From positions 1-33,820 of the forward strand of contig NJBP01000019.1 of NCBI GenBank assembly GCA_005223085.1: 33,820 nt of DNA. Direction: 5' to 3'. The stretch's first letter is position 1, and each line of letters begins with the position of its first letter. Source of the stretch: Candidatus Aerophobetes bacterium Ae_b3b. Lineage in GTDB: Bacteria > Aerophobota > Aerophobia > Aerophobales > AE-B3A. The position numbers and the translations under genes were made by a program. The notes below the pieces were generated by a model. The model was not told where the DNA came from and made no database searches. It saw only the letters and a list, made by a program, of their open reading frames with translations. Below, in pieces: positions 3,828-11,497 of the stretch.

Positions 3828-4346
3828 ATGGCCAGAGAAGCTCTTTTGGTCATGGAAATGTTGAAGGATTTTGTGGAAAGAGGCGCCCCCCTGGAGGTGC
3901 CATCTGCCCGTAAGATTCTTCCTAAGGTAAAGCTAAGGATTGAGGAGGCCAGAAAAAAAGGAATTCCCGTCATTTACATCTGTGATGCTCACAGAGCTCA
4001 AGATGAGGAGTTTAAACGATGGCCTGCTCACGCTATTTTGGGTACCAAGGGGGCAGAGGTTGTGGAAGAGTTAAAGCCCCAAAAAACTGATTTTGTAGTA
4101 AAAAAGAGAAGATATTCTGGTTTTCTGGGGACCGATCTAGACCTCCTATTGAAGGAGCTTAAGGTTGAGAAGTTACACCTGACAGGGGTTCTCACTAATA
4201 TTTGCGTTTTTTTTACCGCAGCGGAGGCGGCCATGAGAGACTATAAGGTAGTTGTGTATAGGGATTCTGTGGCGGCTCTTTCCGAAAAAGATCATAAGTT
4301 TGCCCTTGATCAGCTTGACCAGGTTCTTAAGATTAAGGTGGTTTAG
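3828..4346 (+). CDS. isochorismatase-fold cysteine hydrolase with unusual acid residue
   Basis: The 172-residue protein has the nicotinamidase/isochorismatase fold: LLVMEMLKDF at the N terminus, VVKKRRYSGFLGTDL in the middle (catalytic Lys region), and LTGVLTNICVFFTAAEA with the nucleophile Cys. In this family (PncA, YcaC-like and related proteins) the triad is Asp-Lys-Cys and the first strand normally reads hhhxDMxxDF. Here the triad Asp position is Glu (VMEML), confirmed by a gaa codon. The substrate cannot be told from sequence; nicotinamide hydrolysis is one option. It lies 40 bp before dut, on the same strand as the ftsK run. Confidence 0.8.
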   Translation: MAREALLVMEMLKDFVERGAPLEVPSARKILPKVKLRIEEARKKGIPVIYICDAHRAQDEEFKRWPAHAILGTKGAEVVEELKPQKTDFVVKKRRYSGFLGTDLDLLLKELKVEKLHLTGVLTNICVFFTAAEAAMRDYKVVVYRDSVAALSEKDHKFALDQLDQVLKIKVV

Positions 4347-4386
4347 ACAACAAAAATTGGTTGGTTTTAATTTGAGAGACTCGGGT

Positions 4387-4821
4387 ATGGAGTGGGTGGA
4401 AATAGAGATTGAGCAATTGGATTCAGATCTTCCTCTTCCTCAATATATGACGAGAGGATCGAGCGGTATGGATCTTTATGCTCGTCGCGCCACCACTCTT
4501 TTCCCCAGGCAGATAAAGTTGATTCCTACGGGGATAAAAGTGGGTATTCCCACTGGTTTTGAGCTTCAAATAAGACCTCGCAGCGGTTTGGCTACTCAGG
4601 GAGTAAGTGTGATCAACTCTCCAGGAACCATTGATCCTGACTATCGAGGAGAGATTAAGGTTATTCTTATTAATTTTGGAGAAAAGCCTTATCTTATCAA
4701 ACGGGGAGATAGGATTGCTCAGGCGGTGCTTTGTCCTGTATGTTATGCCCGGCTAAAAGTTGTCAATCAACTAAGGAGGTCTGAAAGAAGTCACCAGGGG
4801 TTCGGTCATACGGGAAGGTAA
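4387..4821 (+). CDS. dut: deoxyuridine 5'-triphosphate nucleotidohydrolase
   Basis: dUTPase splits dUTP to dUMP and pyrophosphate, keeping uracil out of DNA and feeding dTMP synthesis. All five trimeric dUTPase motifs are present: SGMDLYA, PRSGLA, GTIDPDYRGEIKV, RIAQAV and a C-terminal GFGHTG (usually GFGSTG). I chose the ATG at 4387, giving 144 residues, the family's normal length. The frame is open further back but those codons lie over the preceding gene. Its stop is 3 bp before ftsK. A thymidylate-synthase-family gene, which could use the product, is in the minus-strand cluster at 12451-13278. Confidence 0.93.
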   Translation: MEWVEIEIEQLDSDLPLPQYMTRGSSGMDLYARRATTLFPRQIKLIPTGIKVGIPTGFELQIRPRSGLATQGVSVINSPGTIDPDYRGEIKVILINFGEKPYLIKRGDRIAQAVLCPVCYARLKVVNQLRRSERSHQGFGHTGR

Positions 4822-7819: not shown

Positions 7820-7841
7820 CAGTTTTAAAAAGGAGGCATTG

Positions 7842-8414
7842 ATGAGTAAAATTACTGAGATTCGCTGGCATGGAAGAGGGGGACAGGGTGCAAAAACGGC
7901 GTCCTTGTTGTTAGCTGAATCTGCTCTGGAGGAGGGAAAATATATTCAGGGATTTCCTGAGTATGGTCCCGAACGCATGGGAGCTCCTATGCAGTCTTTT
8001 ACCCGGATTAGCGAGGTTCCCATTAGCCTACATTCTCATGTCAGGACTCCTGATGCTGTAGTAGTCCTGGATTCCACATTATTGGGCACTGTTGATGTAA
8101 CCTTTGGTCTTGGAGAAAAAGGTGTAATTCTGGTAAACAGTCCCGAGACTCCTCAAACCATAAGAAGAAAGTTAGGGTTAAACAAAGGTAAAGTTTTTAC
8201 CGTAGATGCTACTTCCATATCTATAGAGATCCTGGGGAAGAATTTACCCAATACCCCTATGTTGGGGGCTTTAATCAAGGTTACCAGTCTATTAAGTCTA
8301 GATACAGTCGCATCTTCCATTAAGCACAAGTTTGGAAAAAAGTTTAGTTCCAGAATAATAGAGGGAAACATAGAGGCTATAAAGAAGGCTTATGAGGAGG
8401 TAAAGGAAGAATGA
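7842..8414 (+). CDS. porG: 2-oxoacid:ferredoxin oxidoreductase, gamma subunit
   Basis: The gamma subunit is part of the complex that oxidatively decarboxylates a 2-oxoacid (pyruvate or a related acid) with CoA, reducing ferredoxin. The 190-residue protein opens with IRWHGRGGQGAKTASLLLAE and has EYGPERMGAPMQSFTRI, both hallmarks of the PorG/VorG family. An aggagg site sits 5 bases before ATG 7842, which I prefer to the TTG three bases earlier. It is first of four genes in the order gamma-delta-alpha-beta, the same as in Thermotoga. Its 3' end overlaps porD by four bases. Pyruvate is the default substrate guess; 2-ketoisovalerate is possible. Confidence 0.9.
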   Translation: MSKITEIRWHGRGGQGAKTASLLLAESALEEGKYIQGFPEYGPERMGAPMQSFTRISEVPISLHSHVRTPDAVVVLDSTLLGTVDVTFGLGEKGVILVNSPETPQTIRRKLGLNKGKVFTVDATSISIEILGKNLPNTPMLGALIKVTSLLSLDTVASSIKHKFGKKFSSRIIEGNIEAIKKAYEEVKEE

Positions 8415-8719
8415 AAGAGAAAGGTTGGAAGGATATTCCCTGGGGAGGGCTGATTTTAGAGGAAGGTAATGCAGAAGAGTATAAGACGGGAAGTTGGCGA
8501 ACCCATCGGCCAGTATGGGATGAAAAGAAATGTACCCACTGTCTTTTATGCTGGGTTTATTGCCCAGATTCTTCTATTATTGTTAAAGAAGAAAAATTCA
8601 AACAATTTGATTATGATCACTGCAAGGGTTGTGGAATTTGCTCAACCCAGTGCCCGACGAAAGCTATCCACATGGAAGAAGAGGGTAAATTTGTGATAAA
8701 GACGGAAGGAGGAAAATAA
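8411..8719 (+). CDS. porD: 2-oxoacid:ferredoxin oxidoreductase, delta subunit (2x[4Fe-4S])
   Basis: This 102-residue ferredoxin-like subunit carries electrons from the thiamine site to external ferredoxin. Two classic cluster motifs are visible: CTHCLLCWVYCPDSSI and CKGCGICSTQCPTKAI, each CxxCxxCxxxCP. The N-terminal WRTHRPVWDEKKC is typical of PorD proteins. Its ATG overlaps the porG stop. The next gene starts 2 bp after its stop, so the four genes form one tightly packed operon. Confidence 0.93.
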   Translation: MKEKGWKDIPWGGLILEEGNAEEYKTGSWRTHRPVWDEKKCTHCLLCWVYCPDSSIIVKEEKFKQFDYDHCKGCGICSTQCPTKAIHMEEEGKFVIKTEGGK

Positions 8720-8720
8720 G

Positions 8721-9902
8721 GTGGGAAGGATAGTTGGTTTAACCGGTGATGAGGCTACGGCTGAAGCGATGCGACAGATCAATCCTGATGTAGTGGCTGC
8801 CTACCCCATTACTCCTCAAACAGAGACGGTACAGAGATTTTCTGAGTTTGTGGCTGAAGGGATAGTTGCTACCGAGATGGTGAGGGTAGAAAGCGAACAT
8901 TCAGCTATGAGTGCCTGTGTAGGAGCGGCAGCAGCGGGGGCTCGAGCCATGACTGCCACTTCGGCTAATGGCCTGGCCTTGATGTGGGAGATCTGTTATA
9001 TTGCGGCCTCTTATAGACTGCCTGTAATAATGGCTGTGGTAAATAGAGCCTTGAGTGGTCCTATTAACATCCATTGCGATCATTCTGACTCCATGGGGAC
9101 GCGAGATGCTGGGTGGATCCAGATATACAGTGAGAACTGCCAGGAGGCTTATGATAATCTCATTCAGGCGGTACGAATAGCTGAAGAGGAGAAGGTTAGA
9201 CTTCCGGTAATGGTCACTTTTGATGGATTTATCATTTCTCATGCCATGGAGCGAGTTGAGATATTGGAAGATGACGAGGTGAGCCAGTTTATCGGTAAAT
9301 ATAAGAATGCCTATTCGCTTCTTGATGTGGACAGTCCTGTGACCTACGGCCCTCTTGATCTATATGACTATTACTTTGAGCATAAAAGACAACAGATAGA
9401 GGCCATAGAAATCTCACCCGAGGTTATTCAAAAAATTGGGAGGGAATTCAAAGATTTAAGCGGTCGGTATTATGATTTAATGGGAAGTTGTCATCTGGAG
9501 GGAGCGGAGTTGGTTATTGTAGCTGCTGGTTCTACTGCCGGAACGGTTGAGAGTGTGGTAGATGAATTAAGAGAGAAGGGTGAGAAAGTGGGTCTTCTCA
9601 AAATTAGAATTTTCCGTCCTTTTCCAGCCAAACAGATCGCAGAAGCCTTAAGAGGCGTGAGAGCAGTGGCTGTTCTAGACCGTTCTGTTTCCTTCGGGGC
9701 GCAGGGAGGACCAATCTTTCTGGAGATTAGATCCGCCCTTTTTGACGAGATTAAACCACCAGCCGTGGTAAATTATATTTATGGACTGGGGGGACGAGAT
9801 ATCGGGGTGGATGAAATTGAGCGAGTTTATAAAAATCTGGAAAGAATTGCCCATACTAAAAAGGTAGACGAATTAGTCGGTTATCTAGGGCTCAGGGAGT
9901 AA
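8721..9902 (+). CDS. porA: 2-oxoacid:ferredoxin oxidoreductase, alpha subunit
   Basis: The 393-residue alpha subunit has the pyrimidine-binding half of the thiamine-diphosphate enzyme: AAYPITPQTETVQRFSEF near the start, VESEHSAMSACVGAAAAGAR, then TATSANGLALMWE. The C-terminal domain of the transketolase type includes VGLLKIRIFRPFPAKQI and VLDRSVSFGAQGGP. Length and domain order match bacterial PorA. The start is GTG with ggaggaaaat upstream. It pairs with the beta subunit encoded 15 bp further on, which supplies the diphosphate-binding half. Confidence 0.93.
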   Translation: MGRIVGLTGDEATAEAMRQINPDVVAAYPITPQTETVQRFSEFVAEGIVATEMVRVESEHSAMSACVGAAAAGARAMTATSANGLALMWEICYIAASYRLPVIMAVVNRALSGPINIHCDHSDSMGTRDAGWIQIYSENCQEAYDNLIQAVRIAEEEKVRLPVMVTFDGFIISHAMERVEILEDDEVSQFIGKYKNAYSLLDVDSPVTYGPLDLYDYYFEHKRQQIEAIEISPEVIQKIGREFKDLSGRYYDLMGSCHLEGAELVIVAAGSTAGTVESVVDELREKGEKVGLLKIRIFRPFPAKQIAEALRGVRAVAVLDRSVSFGAQGGPIFLEIRSALFDEIKPPAVVNYIYGLGGRDIGVDEIERVYKNLERIAHTKKVDELVGYLGLRE

Positions 9903-9917
9903 AATAAGGAGGAGAAG

Positions 9918-11372
9918 ATGCCGTCCCTTAAAGTTTTATCCAGGAAAAAAGAGTTGCTTACCGGAGGTCACCGGCTTTGTGCTGGCTGTGGTGCCTCCAT
10001 AATTGTAAGGCAGGTTCTTATGGCTGCCGAAGATCCCGTGGTAATGAGTTCTGCTACCGGGTGTCTGGAGGTAGCTACCACCATTTATCCTTTTACTGCC
10101 TGGAGAATTCCCTGGATTCATTGTGCTTTTGAGAATTCAGCTTCTACTTTGTCTGGAGTAGAAGCTGCCTATCGTAGTCTAAAAAGACAGGGTAAGATCG
10201 ACCGTACCATTAAGTTCATTGCCTTTGGTGGTGATGGGGGGACCTATGACATAGGACTTCAGGCCTTGTCCGGAGTTCTGGAAAGAGGGCACAATCTCCT
10301 TTATATCTGCTACGATAATCAAGCTTATATGAATTGTTTAAGTACATCTTCTTTGATAATGACTGAAGATGGAGTTAAGAGAATAACAGAAGTAAAAGAA
10401 GGAGATGAGGTATATGCCTTTGATCAGAGAACCTATCAGTTAGTTTTGAAAAAATGTAGTGGGGTATTTGACAATGGAATAAAGGATGTTTACGAACTTA
10501 CCACTTTGCACCATTCAATAAAGGCAACGGCGAATCATCCCTTTTTGGTCTTAAAAAGGAATGGTAGAGGCAAGAAGAATAATTTTGTTTGGCAAACAAT
10601 CTCAGAAATGAAGACGGGAGATGAAATCGTAGTACTGAAAAATTTAGACGAAGGAGAATCATTTAAATTTGATTTTAATAAAGTAAAAAAGGGAGACTAC
10701 AAAGTAAATCGTTCAAAAAATTTTTTAATCGATAACAAGTATTTTGAGATAGAAAAAGTAAGAGATATAAAATTAGTTGGACCAGAGCCGACTTTAGATT
10801 TGAGGGTAGAGGGTGAGCATAATTTTATTGCTGATGGAATTGTGGTTCACAATACAGGGATCCAGAGATCGAGTGCTACTCCTGAAGGGGCGGCAACTAC
10901 TACCAGTCCTGTGGGAAAGGCCATACCGGAAGGAAAGCAAAGACCCCGCAAAGATTTAACCCGGATTGCAGCTGCTCATGACTCTCCCTATGTGGCTCAG
11001 GCTAATCCTGCTTATTACAATGATTTAATTAAGAAGGTACGAAAGGCCTTAAGTACAGAGGGTCCAACTTTTATCAATATTCTCTCGCCCTGTCCCCGGG
11101 GCTGGAGGCATGATCCTTCTCTCTCCATTCAGATTGCTAAACTGGCAGTCTCGACCGGAGTCTGGCCTCTTTATGAGGTGGAAAAAGGTCAATACAGGGT
11201 CACTTATCGTCCTAAAAAGAGACATCCTCTAAGAGAATGGCTGGAGTCTCAGGGAAGATTCAGACACCTTTTGCGGCCCGAGAATAAGGGGATTATGGAA
11301 AGATTAGAAAAACAAGTAGAAGAGAAAGAAAAGAGTCTATTAGCCTTAGCGGGGGAGGAAACTTCCGCGTGA
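9918..11372 (+). CDS. porB: 2-oxoacid:ferredoxin oxidoreductase, beta subunit, with in-frame mini-intein
   Basis: The 484-residue precursor is a normal PorB of about 311 residues interrupted by 173 foreign residues. Extein parts show Cys21, Cys24 and Cys49 (LCAGCGASI, TGCLEV) and CPRGW near the C terminus, the expected ligands of an iron-sulfur cluster. They also show the diphosphate-Mg site with GGDGGTYDIG (Asp106) and YDNQAYMN (133-139). PorB normally continues TGIQRSSATP, which here appears only at residue 313. Cys140 to Asn312 is an intein, described separately. The enzyme can only work after splicing, because the insertion parts the active-site Asn139 from TGIQRS. RBS aaggagg lies 6 bases before the ATG. 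The frame is intact throughout. Confidence 0.95.
   Translation: MPSLKVLSRKKELLTGGHRLCAGCGASIIVRQVLMAAEDPVVMSSATGCLEVATTIYPFTAWRIPWIHCAFENSASTLSGVEAAYRSLKRQGKIDRTIKFIAFGGDGGTYDIGLQALSGVLERGHNLLYICYDNQAYMNCLSTSSLIMTEDGVKRITEVKEGDEVYAFDQRTYQLVLKKCSGVFDNGIKDVYELTTLHHSIKATANHPFLVLKRNGRGKKNNFVWQTISEMKTGDEIVVLKNLDEGESFKFDFNKVKKGDYKVNRSKNFLIDNKYFEIEKVRDIKLVGPEPTLDLRVEGEHNFIADGIVVHNTGIQRSSATPEGAATTTSPVGKAIPEGKQRPRKDLTRIAAAHDSPYVAQANPAYYNDLIKKVRKALSTEGPTFINILSPCPRGWRHDPSLSIQIAKLAVSTGVWPLYEVEKGQYRVTYRPKKRHPLREWLESQGRFRHLLRPENKGIMERLEKQVEEKEKSLLALAGEETSA
10335..10853 (+). mobile_element. mini-intein in PorB (Cys1, Asn173, Thr+1)
   Basis: Intein residues run from Cys1 (host residue 140) to Asn173 (312). 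Block A reads CLSTSSLIMTEDGVKRI. Block B has ATANHPFLVL, with the Thr65-x-x-His68 pair. Block F is TLDLRVEGEHNFIADG. Block G ends VVHN, with His172 and the cyclising Asn173. The first C-extein residue is Thr, one of the three permitted nucleophiles. Nothing between blocks B and F resembles a LAGLIDADG or HNH homing endonuclease, so this is a mini-intein. The segment is plainly richer in A+T than the flanking porB codons. All splicing residues are present, so protein splicing is predicted to be active. Confidence 0.95.
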
Positions 11373-11413
11373 TTACAAATTTTCGTAAGTATTCAGTGAA
11401 CCCCATCATTTTT

Positions 11414-11461
11414 GGTAGTCGCAAGGCTTAGAGCCTGCGCACCCTAAAGGGTGCGGCTACC
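11414..11461. repeat. REP-like three-way-junction palindrome
   Basis: The outer arms gtagtcgca (11415-11423) and tgcggctac (11452-11460) pair with one wobble. Within them aggcttagagcct and gcaccctaaagggtgc form two further stems, giving a three-armed fold. It lies in the 125-bp gap where the porGDAB run and the minus-strand epimerase converge, so it may end transcription from both sides. It could equally be a dispersed repeat, since elements of this kind are common in such genomes. Confidence 0.7.
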
Positions 11462-11497
11462 CTGAAAATTCAATGTGACACGGCGTTTACTAAGCAT

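Follow-up and report, generated by a model that had tools for sequence, protein, structure and literature searches.

The window, which is the whole analysed stretch of 33,820 nucleotides from Candidatus Aerophobetes bacterium Ae_b3b, carries on its forward strand a porB reading frame directly downstream of three frames that read as the gamma, delta and alpha subunits of the same enzyme (7839-9902). The probable gamma subunit PorC (7839..8414) and the probable alpha subunit PorA (8721..9902) were recognized by reading their translations by eye, and the probable delta subunit PorD (8411..8719), of the 2x[4Fe-4S] ferredoxin type, by the cysteine motifs in its translation. Judged by its sequence, the fourth frame (9918-11372, 484 aa) encodes the precursor of PorB, a beta subunit belonging to a 2-oxoacid:ferredoxin oxidoreductase (OFOR) of the pyruvate type, the substrate being a prediction. 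The pyruvate synthase beta model PRK11865 is its top NCBIfam OFOR beta match (E 9.5e-109), with a score of 363 bits against a model cut-off of 405 and with the match split into two stretches by an insert. The short spacer at 11373-11497, which separates porB from an epimerase gene in convergent orientation, contains self-complementary words rich in GC (gcgcaccctaaagggtgcggctaccc) that may represent a terminator or a dispersed repeat.

The insert in porB

The insert (10335..10853, forward strand) comprises 519 nt, or 173 codons, in frame within porB, and corresponds to precursor residues 140-312 (CLSTSS...DGIVVHN). It is preceded by the N-extein (9918..10334, forward strand, PorB residues 1-139), which contains the GDG motif and ends in YDNQAYMN, and followed by the C-extein (10854..11372, forward strand, precursor residues 313-484), which runs from TGIQRS to the stop codon and supplies Thr as the predicted +1 nucleophile. 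The predicted masses are 54 kDa for the unspliced protein, 34.4 kDa for mature PorB and 19.8 kDa for the excised segment, in agreement with the approximately 34 and 20 kDa proposed in an earlier note on this DNA.

By its motifs and modelled fold, the insert is a class 1 mini-intein. The Pfam family Intein_splicing matches it with an E-value of 8.5e-18 and 65.1 bits (cut-off 35.8), and the NCBIfam models intein_Nterm and intein_Cterm, both above their cut-offs, place its start at residue 1 and its end at residue 173. The catalytic set consists of C1, a block B of T65-A66-N67-H68, the terminal H172-N173 and Thr+1, with a block F/G of LDLRVEGEHNFIADGIVVHN; the residue at position 1, block B, the HN end, the +1 residue, the HINT fold and the exact in-frame insertion all conform to class 1. 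The earlier note had described a 173-residue mini-intein with Cys1, a TxxH block B, His172-Asn173 and Thr+1 at 10335-10853, and these coordinates proved exact and every named residue is present. A family search detected neither LAGLIDADG nor any other endonuclease domain in it, which distinguishes it from a full-length homing intein. Its AlphaFold model has a mean pLDDT of 70, with weak regions at residues 105-134 (the former endonuclease loop) and 163-173 (the C-terminal end), and matches the Ssp DnaB mini-intein (6frg) with a Z of 16.3 over 132 residues and a Foldseek E of 1.2e-8. Its closest sequence relatives with solved structures are cyanobacterial DnaB inteins. The Ssp and Npu DnaB mini-inteins (1mi8, 4o1r, 6frg) resemble it in their class 1 HINT domain (26-30% identity, Z about 16), Cys1, TxxH block B and HN C-terminus, but they occupy another site in another host protein, the DnaB helicase, have a different endonuclease-deletion loop and are not allelic to it. 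A class 3 intein was ruled out by C1, the only other cysteine, C41, lying outside block F, and a bacterial intein-like (BIL) domain by the conserved PorB sequence on both sides together with Thr+1.

In 9bt4_C (PFOR beta) and 5c4i_C (oxalate oxidoreductase beta), the counterparts of the two extein halves (1-139 and 313-484) adjoin without a gap. Both chains are members of the same extein family and are continuous through N/TGIQ.S (the slash marks the junction), whereas PorB of the window carries 173 additional residues there. The single Asn of these chains pairs equally well with N139 or with the last Asn of the intein, N312. In 71 PorB loci the corresponding sequence is an uninterrupted AYMN/TGIQRS or a near variant, so that, with the window's own extein included, the junction is N/T in 72 of 72 cases, and the 10-residue segment around it ranks third of 302 in conservation. 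Chance can be dismissed as an explanation of the intein observation, and the earlier view that the host is PorB and that the insertion occupies a near-invariant active-site position is supported.

In the OFOR of S. tokodaii, the GDG motif lies at residues 89-91, Asn118 binds Mg, and Leu123 is the counterpart of Asn996 in D. africanus PFOR, which belongs to the substrate pocket and rotates when pyruvate binds (PMC5020499). The spacing of GDG (105-107), the Mg-binding N134 and the junction N139 in PorB of the window matches this arrangement, which places the intein directly behind the Asn996 equivalent; N139, five residues beyond N134, corresponds to that residue. The earlier note had equated the junction Asn with that of the GDG...N motif; its active-site location stands, but the Mg-binding Asn of the motif is N134, not N139.

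As the earlier note had supposed, the openly accessible full-text literature, to which the search was confined, yielded no description of an intein in PorB, and the insertion site is apparently previously undescribed. DNA-replication proteins are the usual hosts of inteins, and porB would add to the catalogue a host and site located where an enzyme of core anaerobic carbon metabolism binds its cofactor.

Alleles at the junction and their descent

The same site is occupied in 7 of 17 Aerophobetes genomes, six of them recognized by the junction pattern and the seventh (G004, locus L013) cut by a contig end, as well as in Actinomycetota of the Subteraquimicrobium type (G061/L042, G133/L134 and G284/L135). 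Ten of the 15 matches of the actinomycetotal pattern search were examined; L133-L135 are PorB inteins, while the remaining seven appear to match by chance. Searches in the phyla around G057, G031 and G049 gave no match among the three to four genomes covered in each. The scan of genome contigs covered the best 80 loci, and dissimilar same-site inteins may exist elsewhere. All genomes compared are MAGs, and the window itself comes from a fragmented one of 86 contigs, a setting in which assembly or binning might have joined an intein to porB; since independent assemblies from two phyla show the same in-frame junction with continuous exteins, the probability of such an artefact is negligible.

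The alleles differ in the state of their endonuclease. Full-length inteins of 366 aa are present at L039, from the same genus as the window, and at L040, both with LAGLIDADG_3, and at L134, in which the endonuclease was recognized by alignment. The 326-aa intein of L042 retains LAGLIDADG_3 and has its endonuclease tail deleted, the endonuclease of L013 is internally deleted, and the shorter alleles measure 173 aa (window), 165 aa (L037 and L038, with a deletion common to both) and 145 aa (L135), while the contig bearing L041 ends inside the intein. The intein of the window is 91% identical to that of L039, relative to which it lacks 579 nt with a breakpoint at intein nt 381-384, near 10715-10719 of the window; alignment to L039 places the scar at 10714..10720 on the forward strand. 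The breakpoints differ between alleles, which implies a minimum of four separate losses of the endonuclease, each through an in-frame deletion that left the splicing blocks intact.

Between the window and L039, silent divergence is practically equal in the intein (dS 0.27, dN 0.037, dN/dS 0.138) and the extein (dS 0.29, dN 0.033, dN/dS 0.114), indicating that intein and porB were co-inherited from the ancestor of the genus. As L039 retains the endonuclease, the lineage of the window probably lost it later, the alternative being gene conversion in L039. Against L037 and L038 (dN/dS 0.08-0.09), the intein shows a somewhat smaller silent divergence than the extein, significantly so in one pair only, and an entirely vertical history within the family is accordingly not certain. 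The endonuclease region of the full-length alleles is constrained between L039 and L040 (dN/dS 0.05), and silent changes between L042 and L134 are too few to show constraint.

The dN/dS values near 0.1 in both intein and extein indicate that purifying selection acts on the splicing domain and has kept it functional, and they lend indirect support to autocatalytic splicing. They also bear on the proposal that the insert is a relic that no longer splices, leaving PorB inactive or working as two cleaved pieces. Such decay would accord with the loss of the endonuclease, but it is very improbable given this constraint, the intact catalytic residues and the fact that the intein-bearing PorB is the sole strong PorB/PFOR match in its genome (G000), although this MAG is 88.6% complete and a second PFOR could be missing from the assembly.

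In all eight complete alleles, the intein has a GC content of 33-38% and the extein one of 45-53%, and in the actinomycetotal hosts, with exteins of 50-53%, the inteins remain within the same range. The earlier note correctly regarded the intein as more AT-rich than its host codons, but its interpretation of this as a sign of late arrival was rejected: the GC content is equally low in every host, which makes it a trait of the intein family that says nothing about arrival time, and dS relative to L039 equals that of the extein.

Movement between hosts is apparent from several comparisons. Between L039 and L042, the inteins share 75% and the exteins 63% amino acid identity (p 0.0014), and silent sites are saturated in the extein (0.70 vs an expected 0.74), whereas those of the intein differ at 0.46 against a saturation value of 0.71 (p 1e-6); silent-site comparisons were tested against base-composition saturation because the AT-rich third positions of the intein reduce apparent divergence. 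Within Subteraquimicrobium (L042 and L134), 4% of fourfold sites differ between the inteins vs 17% between the exteins (p 7e-4). The intein postdates the split between the phyla of its hosts. In the extein tree, in which the actinomycetotal rows fall outside the Aerophobetes clade (support 100/99), the insert must have been gained or lost a minimum of four times on well-supported branches, and sister genera in the same family have an empty porB site. The host distribution is patchy. One MAG (G010, isolate B47_G16) contains both an occupied porB (L041, positions 4325-4766) and an exactly empty one (L044, positions 1-240), whose sequences are identical over the 93 nt that end at the junction and continue with TGT (intein) and ACG (Thr), respectively; this looks like strain polymorphism in the sampled population. 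The DNA of the empty site is ...GAYAAYCARGCNTAYATGAAY^ACNGGNATHCARCG.... A search for a viral or plasmid source of the intein revealed no vector, as viral, phage and plasmid collections yielded no close relative and only distant inteins (<40% identity over any long stretch), located in other proteins where annotated.

Proposed history of the intein

It is highly probable that the porB intein descends from a homing intein that spread horizontally at the active-site position of porB, and that it still splices but is no longer mobile. The HINT domain presumably excises after translation through an N-S acyl shift at Cys1, attack by Thr+1 and cyclisation of Asn173 aided by His172, which would join ...AYMN to TGIQ... 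and restore the 34.4-kDa PorB. Without splicing, pyruvate:ferredoxin oxidoreductase could not build its thiamine-diphosphate/substrate site, and PorB is likely to be essential. The LAGLIDADG endonuclease of the full-length ancestor is presumed to cut the conserved empty site (...TATATGAAY^ACNGGNATHCAR...), with the intein being copied in by repair, and homing of this kind would have spread it within the Aerophobetes as well as between this phylum and the Actinomycetota. In the lineage of the window, deletion of the endonuclease after the split from the same-genus relative would have produced an immobile mini-intein, which is proposed to be held in place because only its exact removal is tolerated.

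The homing cycle as reviewed (PMC7765530), in which homing-endonuclease inteins decay to mini-inteins, likewise brings together empty, full-length, partly deleted and mini forms at one conserved site, the difference being that the host here is PorB, a central enzyme of anaerobic carbon metabolism. The ordinary homing cycle explains the porB intein, the value of which lies in its life-cycle stages and active-site location rather than in a new mechanism. A single site in one small phylum presents empty, full-length, partly deleted and several mini forms, a mixed population and interphylum transfer; with all stages of the cycle at one site, the rates of endonuclease loss and re-invasion become measurable. 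Furthermore, the natural deletion variants provide ready-made compact inteins for engineering.

The gating proposal and further inteins

PFOR belongs to an oxygen-sensitive class of enzymes, and the insertion blocks its active site, which raises the idea of a domesticated intein whose conditional splicing (redox, oxygen or temperature) gates PFOR activity to the benefit of the host. C41, which together with C1 makes up all the cysteines of the window's intein, lies between blocks A and B and is invariant in eight aligned alleles. A cysteine between the same blocks, Cys48, forms an inhibitory disulfide with the catalytic Cys118 in DnaBi1 of M. smegmatis (PMC6195587); this is at most an analogy, since DnaBi1, unlike the class 1 intein of the window, belongs to class 3 and uses another nucleophile. 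Intein-free sister genera of the same family and the population with both states indicate that the intein is dispensable, and its distribution and endonuclease decay fit a parasite cycle. Regulation of this kind is therefore unlikely, and the redox gating suggested in the earlier note is unsupported, with only C1 and C41 available and close relatives living without the intein.

At least four inteins occur in the genome of the window, the other three being hosted by V-type ATP synthase subunit A, by RtcB and by the acetyl-CoA synthase AcsB. That of AcsB (L004, contig C69, from about 20855) is large, has LAGLIDADG-like motifs and a Lys in place of His as its penultimate residue, and is inserted directly before the A-cluster cysteines, with junctions DPMTS/CVVGETEL...LIKN/CGCFE. 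It is also present in G002 (L142) and G007 (L144), and so in three Aerophobetes genera, and the open literature, searched with the same scope as for PorB, contained no report of an intein in AcsB. Splicing in PorB and at the AcsB A-cluster might respond to redox state or oxygen and so keep two enzymes of anaerobic carbon metabolism, both oxygen-labile, in inactive precursor form until conditions become reducing, a reading that is likewise unlikely.

V-type ATP synthase subunit A and RtcB are well-known intein hosts. In the former, the intein (L002, contig C45) interrupts the P-loop site GPFGSGK/C; that of RtcB lies on contig C57 (L003). In the Subteraquimicrobium genome G061, two frames, L130 (contig C81, 1793 aa) and L131 (contig C58, 1088 aa), weakly match the intein/endonuclease and are probably further inteins.
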